From Candidatus Eiseniibacteriota bacterium (lineage in GTDB: Bacteria > Eisenbacteria > RBG-16-71-46 > SZUA-252), in the NCBI GenBank assembly GCA_005893165.1, contig VBOR01000026.1, positions 1 through 46,610 on the forward strand: a stretch of DNA of 46,610 nt, in the 5' to 3' direction. How positions within the stretch are numbered: position 1 is the stretch's first letter; every line of letters begins with the position of its first letter. The translations under genes were made by a program, and so were the position numbers. Positions 43,165 to 46,610 of this stretch are shown in pieces. Under the pieces are notes generated by a model, which was given only the letters and a program-made list of their open reading frames with translations, was not told the DNA's origin and made no database searches.

Positions 43165-44400
43165 CTACTTCGAGGCGCCCATGTGTGCTCGAATTCGATC
43201 CGCGACACGATCGACGTCCGAGTCCGAGAGATCGGGATAAATCGGTAGTGAGAGCGTCTCCTCGAAACACCGCTCCGCGACTGGGAATTGGCCCGTACTG
43301 AAGCCGAGACGCTCCTGGTACCAGCGGAAGAGGTGGAGCGGCTTGAAGTGGACGCTGGTTCCGATGCCGTCCGCGCGCAGGGCCAGGGAGAGCGCGTCGC
43401 GCCCGGTCCCACGTCCTTCCTCCTGGCTCGCCTTGTTTCCCACCGTCTGCACCGGCGCCGCGCGCGCGACCGCGATCTGATAGAGGTGCCAGGCGTGGCG
43501 AACGCCGGGGGCGACCGACGGCGTCTTGATGCCGGGGACGCCGCGGAGCGCCTCGGTGTACCGGCGCGCGATCGATTCGCGGCGTTTGCGCATCTCCTCG
43601 GCGCGGGCCATCTGCGCCAGCGCGAGGGCCGCCTGGATGTCGGTCAGGTTGTACTTGTACCCCAGCTCCGTCACGTCGTAGTCCCACCACCCGCCGCTTC
43701 CGTAGCGCGACCAGGCCGCGTCCGATAGGCCGTGCAGGCATAGCCTGCGGATGCGGTCCGCCCAGTCCTCCCGCCCCATGACCGCCATGCCCCCTTCGCC
43801 GGCGGTGACGCCCTTCGTCGCGTAGAAGGAGAAGCAGGTGATGTCGGCCTGCGTTCCAACCGGGGTCTCGCCGAGGCGGGCGGTCAGCGAGTGGGCCGCG
43901 TCCTCGATGATGTGGATGTTTCGGCCGCGGGTCATCTTCGCGACCTCTTGGGTGCGGCAGGGGTGTCCCGCGATCGAGACCATGACAATGGCTTTCGTCT
44001 TCTTGGTCAGCGCGGAATCGAGCTTCGAGGGATCCAAATTTTTCGTCGAAGGTTCGACGTCGACGAAAACCGGTTTGGCGCCGAGGTACAAGATGGTCTC
44101 GCCGGTGCTTACGAAGGTATACGGAGATGTGATGACTTCATCGCCCTGCCCGACCCCTGCCGCGATGAGGGCGAGGTGGAGAGCCGCGGTGCAGGAAGAG
44201 AGGGCGACGCCGTGGAGCTCGGTGCCGGGCGCGCTCGAGGGGGACGCCGAGTCGCTCGAGCCAACGTATTTCGTTACAGCGGCCTCCAGCTCGCGTGCTT
44301 TCGGCCCCGAAGTGAGCCAGCCCGAGCGGAGCACCGCCTCGACCGCGTCGATCTCGGCCTGAGTGATCGATGGCTTGTGAAAAGGGATCTGACCCGCCAC
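43165..44400 (-). CDS. DegT/DnrJ/EryC1/StrS-family sugar aminotransferase
   Basis: 411 residues. PLP-dependent transamination of a nucleotide-linked keto-sugar for polysaccharide or glycan synthesis. Hallmarks: IPFHKPSITQAEIDAVEAVLRSGWLTSGPKARELE, VALSSCTAALHLALIAAGVGQGDEVITSPYTFVSTGETILYLGAKPVFVDVEP, EDAAHSLTAR, the PLP lysine K196 in CFSFYATKGVTAGEGGM, and the C-terminal YQERLGFSTGQFPVAERCFEETLSLPIYPDLS. GTG start at 44400. Related to ArnB and WecE types, but the sugar cannot be assigned from sequence alone. Divergent from the SLBB exporter gene. Confidence 0.93.
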   Translation of the reverse strand: MAGQIPFHKPSITQAEIDAVEAVLRSGWLTSGPKARELEAAVTKYVGSSDSASPSSAPGTELHGVALSSCTAALHLALIAAGVGQGDEVITSPYTFVSTGETILYLGAKPVFVDVEPSTKNLDPSKLDSALTKKTKAIVMVSIAGHPCRTQEVAKMTRGRNIHIIEDAAHSLTARLGETPVGTQADITCFSFYATKGVTAGEGGMAVMGREDWADRIRRLCLHGLSDAAWSRYGSGGWWDYDVTELGYKYNLTDIQAALALAQMARAEEMRKRRESIARRYTEALRGVPGIKTPSVAPGVRHAWHLYQIAVARAAPVQTVGNKASQEEGRGTGRDALSLALRADGIGTSVHFKPLHLFRWYQERLGFSTGQFPVAERCFEETLSLPIYPDLSDSDVDRVADRIRAHMGASK

Positions 44401-44495
44401 GCGCCGGAAGGTAGCACATGCGAGACGAGGGGCGTCATCGCGGTGTTCGCGATCGGCGGCGGCGTACGGTCGGCGTGGGGGATTGGGTCCTCACT

Positions 44496-44579
44496 GGCCA
44501 GAATCGTGCCGGAGAAGTTGACCTGCGGTTGGCGGCGTGGTATCAATCGCGGCGTAGCACCTCTCCGGCGATTCTGGCC
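44496..44579. repeat. Long imperfect inverted repeat flanking the exporter promoter
   Basis: The left arm 44496-44515 (GGCCAGAATCGTGCCGGAGA) and the right arm 44562-44579 (TCTCCGGCGATTCTGGCC) are complementary except that two bases (AC) are missing from the right. 46 bases lie between, and these contain the sigma-70-type promoter at 44518-44546. Arm centres are about 65 bp apart, close to six helical turns. Seen in sequence; looping operator, invertible element or mobile-element remnant are all open. Confidence 0.65.
44518..44546 (+). promoter_or_regulatory. Sigma-70-type promoter of the SLBB exporter gene
   Basis: TTGACC (44518-44523), 17-base spacer, TATCAA (44541-44546). The predicted start is near 44553, 70 bases before the ATG at 44624. 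It sits inside the inverted repeat 44496-44579. The 223-bp gap 44401-44623 shows no gene. Confidence 0.6.
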
Positions 44580-44623
44580 AAAACTTGCGCGCAGTGGGGT
44601 TGGTGATTGTGGTGGGGCCAGGG

Positions 44624-46610
44624 ATGGAGCGTAAGACGAAGCGCAGATCCGGAACGATTCCGCGTAGTATCCGCGTCCTTACAGTCGTCGTTCCTCTTCT
44701 TTCAAGCCCCTTCCAAGCATCCGCTCAGTCTGAAGCCGACATTCGAAGGAAGATCGAGGCAAGCGGGCATTCCGAATCGGAGGTGCGCCAGAAGATTCAG
44801 GACTCCGGCCTCACTCCCGAGCAGGTGCGTCAGCGCCTGAGGGACGCCGGCTATAATCCGGACGCGTTCGACCGGTACATGCCCGGAAACCGAGCCGGTG
44901 GACCCGTGGAATCACGTGCCAACCAGCCTGTCCCAACAAGCGCCCCATCGGAGTCTGACTCAGTACTTGCGAGCCCACCGGCCTCCGTCGAGCTCTCCCG
45001 GATGGATCACGACATTTCGGCGCAGACGCCGGAGTTCACCCGGGAAATCCTGTCTCGTGTGCCGTCAGCTGGAACTGTCATGCCATTCGGGTACGACATT
45101 TTTCGGTATTCACCTTCAACCTTCGAGCCCTTGGCGACCGGACCCGTTGATCCCGACTATCCGATTGGACCTGGCGACGAGATCGTAGTCTCCGTCTGGG
45201 GCGACAATCAGTACACCTACAACTCAGTTGTGTCGCGCGAGGCGACGATTTCCGTACCCGACATTGGCCAAGTCACCGTCAATGGCCTCACATTGGCACA
45301 GGCGAAGCGGTTGATCACGGAGCGATTCGCCACCATCTACTCCGGCATTCGAGCAAGGCGTCCGACGACTTTCGTGGACGTGACCCTTGGAAAACTGCGA
45401 ACCAACCAGGTTTTCATACTGGGGGACGTCGTGCGGCCGGGTGGGTACACCATCTCTTCCGTCTCGACCGTGCTCAACGCGCTGTATAGTGCAGGAGGGC
45501 CAACCGCGCGTGGCTCCATGAGAGACGTGCGGATTATCCGTCATAACGAAGTCTTCCGTCGTGTGGACCTCTACGGCTACATCCTCACTGGCAGCCGGGC
45601 CGAAGACATTCGGCTCCAAAGCGGAGACATTGTCTTCGTTCCTCCCATTGGCAAAACAATCGCAATTCTCGGCGAGATACATCGTCCAGCGATTTATGAA
45701 ATGAGGCTTGGGGAGCGTTTTCATGATCTCCTCGGGCTGAGCGGCGGCGTACTTGCAACCGCCCTTCTCGATCGAATGCAGATCGATAGGATTGTCCCCT
45801 TTGCCCAACGCGACTCGCTTCATGGAATGGATCGGATCGCGCTCGACATGCCTCTCCGGGGAATCCTTGCCGATAGTACTCAGGACCCTGAGCTCTTGGA
45901 CAAGGACATTGTCCAGGTCTTCCGTATTGGCGATGTTCGAAAGAACACCGTATCTATTTCAGGCTCGGTAATTCGTCACCCTGGGACCTACCAACTCAAG
46001 CCGGCCATGCATATTTCAGATCTTGTTCAGGCCGCGGGGGGGTATACACAGGACGTATATCTGGACCGGGCCGCACTAGTTCGCACAGCACCCGATCTAT
46101 CCCAGAGCATTTTCCGATTCAACGTCGGTAAAGCGGTGGCCAAGGACCTCGAGCAGGATCTTGAGTTAACTCAGCTCGACGCAATTTATGTTGCATCCAT
46201 CTGGGACATACGCGACCGACACATTGTTCAGATTACGGGAAATGTTCGCAAGCCGGGGACCTACGACCTTCTCCATGGAATGACGATCATGGATCTCATC
46301 TTTGCCTCTGGCGGACTCAAGGAGTCAGCCTCCAAGCTTGAAGCTGAGATCTCTCGAATTGACTCGACTTCAATCGCCACGACGAAGGGCGCACGCATCT
46401 ATCTCGTGCCTATTTCACAGGACTACGGAATCCACTCGCAGGACACGAGTTTCGTACTTCAGGAGTATGACGAAGTATTCGTTCGCGAGATTCCAGATTG
46501 GGAGCTTCGACGAAATGTGACCATCACGGGAGAGGTAACGTTCCCGGGGATCTACTCACTCAAATCGAAGGATGAACGGCTGTCCTCGCTTCTCGCTCGT
46601 GCCGGTGGGC
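44624..46610 (+). CDS. Polysaccharide export protein with SLBB domains (partial at right edge)
   Basis: At least 662 residues, open to the end. A signal peptide (RVLTVVVPLLSSPFQASAQ) is followed by three 14-residue repeats (residues 37-78), then a Pro/Ser linker. The Poly_export domain begins at DPDYPIGPGDEIVVSVWGDN ... ISVPDIGQVTVNGLTLAQAKRLI. Five SLBB-type segments follow: VFILGDVVRPGGYTI, IAILGEIHRPAIYEM, VSISGSVIRHPGTYQL, VQITGNVRKPGTYDL and VTITGEVTFPGIYSL, each ended by an AGG or SGG motif. Proteins of the Wza/GfcE group form the outer-membrane exit for capsule or EPS. The base composition is clearly lower in GC than the neighbours, as is common in polysaccharide loci. Start: ATG at 44624, directly before the signal peptide, with only a weak G-rich ribosome site. 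Confidence 0.88.
   Translation, partial: MERKTKRRSGTIPRSIRVLTVVVPLLSSPFQASAQSEADIRRKIEASGHSESEVRQKIQDSGLTPEQVRQRLRDAGYNPDAFDRYMPGNRAGGPVESRANQPVPTSAPSESDSVLASPPASVELSRMDHDISAQTPEFTREILSRVPSAGTVMPFGYDIFRYSPSTFEPLATGPVDPDYPIGPGDEIVVSVWGDNQYTYNSVVSREATISVPDIGQVTVNGLTLAQAKRLITERFATIYSGIRARRPTTFVDVTLGKLRTNQVFILGDVVRPGGYTISSVSTVLNALYSAGGPTARGSMRDVRIIRHNEVFRRVDLYGYILTGSRAEDIRLQSGDIVFVPPIGKTIAILGEIHRPAIYEMRLGERFHDLLGLSGGVLATALLDRMQIDRIVPFAQRDSLHGMDRIALDMPLRGILADSTQDPELLDKDIVQVFRIGDVRKNTVSISGSVIRHPGTYQLKPAMHISDLVQAAGGYTQDVYLDRAALVRTAPDLSQSIFRFNVGKAVAKDLEQDLELTQLDAIYVASIWDIRDRHIVQITGNVRKPGTYDLLHGMTIMDLIFASGGLKESASKLEAEISRIDSTSIATTKGARIYLVPISQDYGIHSQDTSFVLQEYDEVFVREIPDWELRRNVTITGEVTFPGIYSLKSKDERLSSLLARAGG

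Follow-up and report, generated by a model that had tools for sequence, protein, structure and literature searches.

An inverted repeat around a conserved polysaccharide exporter promoter in Candidatus Eiseniibacteriota: a candidate pair of regulator sites

An imperfect inverted repeat brackets the promoter of a polysaccharide exporter gene in a contig of a Candidatus Eiseniibacteriota bacterium (VBOR01000026.1, positions 1 to 46,610; this whole stretch of 46,610 nucleotides is referred to as the window). The repeat exceeds chance expectation, the promoter inside it is conserved in relatives, and no second copy exists in the assembled genome. The two arms are interpreted as a lineage-specific pair of oppositely oriented putative regulator sites flanking the conserved exporter promoter, an interpretation that is given an even chance of being correct. 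The element would most likely be a local repressor site of this lineage rather than an on/off DNA switch.

The inverted repeat and the promoter inside it

The repeat occupies the gap between two divergent polysaccharide genes. The features of this part of the window are as follows.

43165..44400, minus strand: divergent DegT/DnrJ/EryC1 aminotransferase gene, assigned by domain search
44495..44515, plus strand: left arm, TGGCCAGAATCGTGCCGGAGA, which reads TGGCCAGAATCG-TG-CCGGAGA with TG as a 2-nt bulge; located immediately upstream of the -35 hexamer
44519..44524, plus strand: -35 hexamer TTGACC; a TTGAC-type hexamer is found in relatives G003, G004, G005 and G037, and TTGCG in G007
44539..44547, plus strand: extended -10 element, TGG-TATCAA; (G/T)GGTA or TGCTA is found at the same place in the five relatives
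44562..44580, minus strand: right arm, TCTCCGGCGATTCTGGCCA, reading TGGCCAGAATCG-CCGGAGA on the minus strand; located at about +8 to +27, in the predicted 5' leader
44624..46610, plus strand: polysaccharide exporter gene with Poly_export and SLBB domains and, by eye, a signal peptide; the start codon is not certain and the gene runs off the contig end

The repeat (44495-44580) consists of 19 pairs in two perfect blocks, a 12-bp outer block and a 7-bp inner block, and the spacer between the arms is 46 nt. Inverted arms 46 bp apart had been claimed in the original prediction and are present (44495-44515 and 44562-44580). Its description of them as near-perfect arms of 18-20 bp is a fair one for the 19 pairs, but the TG bulge makes one arm 2 nt longer than the other, and no uninterrupted stretch of pairing exceeds 12 bp. 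From the coordinates, the 12-bp core boxes lie 74 bp apart centre to centre, or about seven helical turns. Neither arm showed a clear dyad on inspection by eye.

The promoter between the arms, TTGACC-N17-TATCAA, has its -10 hexamer at 44542-44547 and a TG one base before it. It was not called by a simple consensus scan, because the scan demands 9 of 12 matches and a T at the last -10 position. Exporter orthologs with 59-74% identity were found in G003, G004, G005, G007 and G037. A promoter of the same shape, with a spacer of 17-18 and similarly far from the gene, lies upstream of all five and faces the exporter in each case. Since the orthologs have it at the corresponding upstream position, this sigma-70-type promoter probably belongs to the exporter, as had been proposed from the hexamers and spacing, which were correctly given. 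The identification of the gene as a polysaccharide exporter was likewise borne out by its Poly_export and SLBB domains. No regulator gene adjoining the repeat was found among the subset of nearby open reading frames scanned with Pfam.

Two further observations were made on the surroundings. Over the exporter gene (window 44600-46610) the G+C content drops to about 50-60%, from about 65-70%, which suggests a compositionally distinct polysaccharide cluster past the contig end. In G005 and G007 (L066, L067) the exporter and the divergent aminotransferase are separated by at least one small lipoprotein-like gene; the corresponding part of the window (43165-44623) is without these genes.

When the whole window was shuffled with dinucleotides preserved, one shuffle in 100 reached a stem of 19 or more pairs broken by one small interruption, and about 0.05 such stems are expected in 444 kb of genome (20 genome stretches plus the window). 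For the promoter flanks alone, none of 200 shuffles reached the repeat, which scored 16.5 against a shuffle maximum of 11.5. The repeat is thus beyond chance, yet it is not extreme if the search is taken to have covered the whole window, because under a harsher gap penalty, applied to each base of the bulge, 4 of the 8 shuffled windows scored at or above it.

Distribution of the repeat among relatives and within the genome

A bracketing inverted repeat above chance was found at none of the five orthologous promoters (G003, G004, G005, G007 and G037). In the closest relatives the promoter and the gene are separated by a similar length, and hence nothing has been inserted. The comparison indicates that the promoter is ancestral and the repeat lineage-specific. 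Relatives within the genus are few, and an exporter ortholog was present in one of three.

Partial similarity to single arms was observed in three relatives. The left arm matched at 12 of 21 bases in G005 (p 0.015) and at 11 of 21 bases in G037 (p 0.042), at the matching position in both, and a GGCCA box lies at nearly the same distance from the -35 hexamer in these two genomes. The right arm matched at 13 of 19 bases in G004, in nearly the same place (p 0.002). These p values are single-test figures from ten tests, and the weak single-arm counterparts are for that reason suggestive at most. Conservation of both sites at orthologous promoters, which would support paired operators, did not extend beyond such weak partial similarity.

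Relatives of family f8 were of separate interest. G037 belongs to this family, which is not that of the window, but its exporter (G037:C95:2085-3971, L100) is 61% similar to that of the window, a value like those within the window's own family; the other f8 members are at 45-46%. This suggests horizontal transfer of the G037 exporter. In f8 relatives (L103, L104, L105, L106, L107 and L108) another conserved motif precedes the exporter ortholog, (TTT)TGCACTCAAG, followed after about 14-18 bases by CCGAT(A/G) in most. By eye, the motif is one resembling a sigma-28/WhiG-type promoter. G030 and G032 each had a single occurrence of the strict pattern, confined to the exporter locus, and it was absent from the others of the 39 genomes searched.

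The original prediction had called for a search of the genome for further copies of the arm. This was carried out on the 2.5-Mb, 92%-complete assembly and returned none; a 12-bp exact copy on contig C30 lies in what appears to be coding sequence and has no inverted partner. A search with the 103-bp element found only the element itself in its own genome, and elsewhere, among relatives, short matches at chance level. Across 85k genomes and viral contigs the arm pattern gave isolated, scattered matches, and no well-matched inverted partner was present within 300 bp of any of them (the best had 5 mismatches). Most of these could be due to chance; in addition, one sequence is common to several Pseudomonas. 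A mobile element of the MITE or REP-like kind was considered and rejected as the origin of the repeat, because the element is single-copy and the promoter it encloses is ancestral, being common to the orthologs.

A different, dispersed paired repeat was noticed in the same genome. It pairs GGGAGCGRTGTYTCCC with its reverse complement at a distance of about 28 bases, and the start-to-start spacing is 44 bases at each of eight places (contigs C14, C24, C68, C87, C89, C115, C123 and C128). Copies on contigs C24 and C115 of this genome (G000) are at L110:8053-8124, L110:15506-15571 and L124:15021-15090, and two of the copies read have the loop ATCTTCACCATTT in common. It resembles a REP/REPIN-type or MITE element; a Y1 transposase (PF01797) was not found in the genome.

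Inversion, transcript folding and template switching

The invertible capsule promoters of Bacteroides are invertons served by Mpi-type serine or tyrosine invertases, and the original prediction had raised the same mechanism for the present repeat. A site-specific recombinase would flip the 46-bp spacer and thereby turn the promoter towards either the exporter or the divergent aminotransferase. The resemblance is in outline only. Here too inverted repeats flank the promoter of a surface-polysaccharide gene, a flipped promoter would point at the aminotransferase, and the arms fall within the 10-40 nt span of published inverton repeats (PMC11892184). Invertons often have a cognate invertase nearby, but the recombinase search that had been proposed found no serine recombinase (PF00239) in the 92%-complete assembly and only two tyrosine recombinases (PF00589). 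Both are on another contig (C55), one of them beside TopA, and from sequence and neighbourhood they look like the housekeeping XerC and XerD. There is a single arm pair, and in all five relatives the promoter faces the exporter and the repeat is absent. Inversion of the spacer is itself unlikely because of the 2-nt indel between the arms, inside the repeat, and the spacer of merely 46 bp. Recombinase-driven inversion is accordingly regarded as very improbable. Still less credence is given to inversion of the 46-bp promoter segment by means other than a dedicated recombinase, for example by XerC/XerD or replication template switching, as a minimal polysaccharide switch. A role in RNA is improbable as well, if slightly less so: transcription from further upstream would carry both arms, and the long stem would hide or expose downstream signals. 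The strand does fold to -56.5 kcal/mol (z = -3.2), but the loop encloses the conserved promoter, whose own transcript cannot contain the stem because the left arm is upstream. The predicted leader of this transcript has no unusual structure (z = 0.7), no terminator-like T-run was detected by a terminator scan, and an Rfam search gave no match. The aminotransferase gene has its own extended -10-like sequence near its start (by eye), and with this putative promoter the repeat would escape transcription on that strand too. A role at the DNA level fits better than one in RNA, because the predicted transcript lacks one of the two arms.

The main rival to a pair of regulator sites is a quasi-palindrome without function. 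On this view one arm was copied from the other, or homogenised with it, when replication switched template in this lineage, and the product is used by no protein. Template switching has been documented to homogenise the arms of imperfect inverted repeats (PMC8604942; PMC7202029). The present repeat is likewise imperfect, lineage-specific and confined to a single locus, and the similar promoter-to-gene length in the closest relatives is in keeping with such a change. On the other hand, the repeats linked to template switching tend to have shorter spacers than the one found here, in a study that covered spacers up to 70 bp (PMC8604942). The precise position around a conserved promoter would have to be a coincidence, and the weak matches to each arm in relatives speak against a recent copying of one from the other. 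A mutational by-product is a serious possibility, although it is judged the less probable explanation, and regulator sites, at even chances, are favoured over it.

The arms as candidate regulator sites

On the preferred reading of paired regulator sites, a regulator would occupy both arms, one just upstream of the -35 hexamer and the other over the transcript start. With the 12-bp cores occupied, the promoter would be blocked or looped, and transcription of the exporter would be turned down. We infer protein binding, repression and any looping from the arrangement of the arms. A repressor on the arms had been offered in the original prediction as an equal alternative to inversion; of the two it is the more probable, with the arms as candidate sites.

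In favour of regulator sites are the placement of the repeat exactly around a promoter that recurs in five relatives, its rarity in shuffled sequence, both of the window and of the promoter flanks, its position between two divergent polysaccharide genes, and, weakly, the same-position counterparts in relatives of parts of each arm. Against them, none of the five orthologous promoters has the bracketing repeat, and the arms are not clear palindromes by eye, unlike typical operators of dimeric repressors. Nor does a regulon stand behind such an operator, as the arm has no other copy in the 92%-complete genome.

Looping repressors of the LacI/GalR type use paired operators, for example those that flank the gal promoter. 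Classical operators are palindromes in themselves. The present arms differ in this respect, since each arm is asymmetric and it is both together that form the repeat. The likeness is that two related sites flank a promoter at a spacing compatible with a loop; lac repressor loops are documented at operator spacings of 58-156 bp (PMC1762422). The agreement of the 74-bp distance with this range and with a whole number of helical turns is post hoc, having been noticed after the fact. The element is likely a new example of promoter-flanking control sites, a kind already known, and would work like a paired operator.

If the arms are an operator pair, they mark where a regulator would control the export of surface polysaccharide in an uncultured lineage. 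If they are a mutational by-product, the repeat serves as a caution that an inverted repeat flanking a promoter is not in itself evidence for phase variation.
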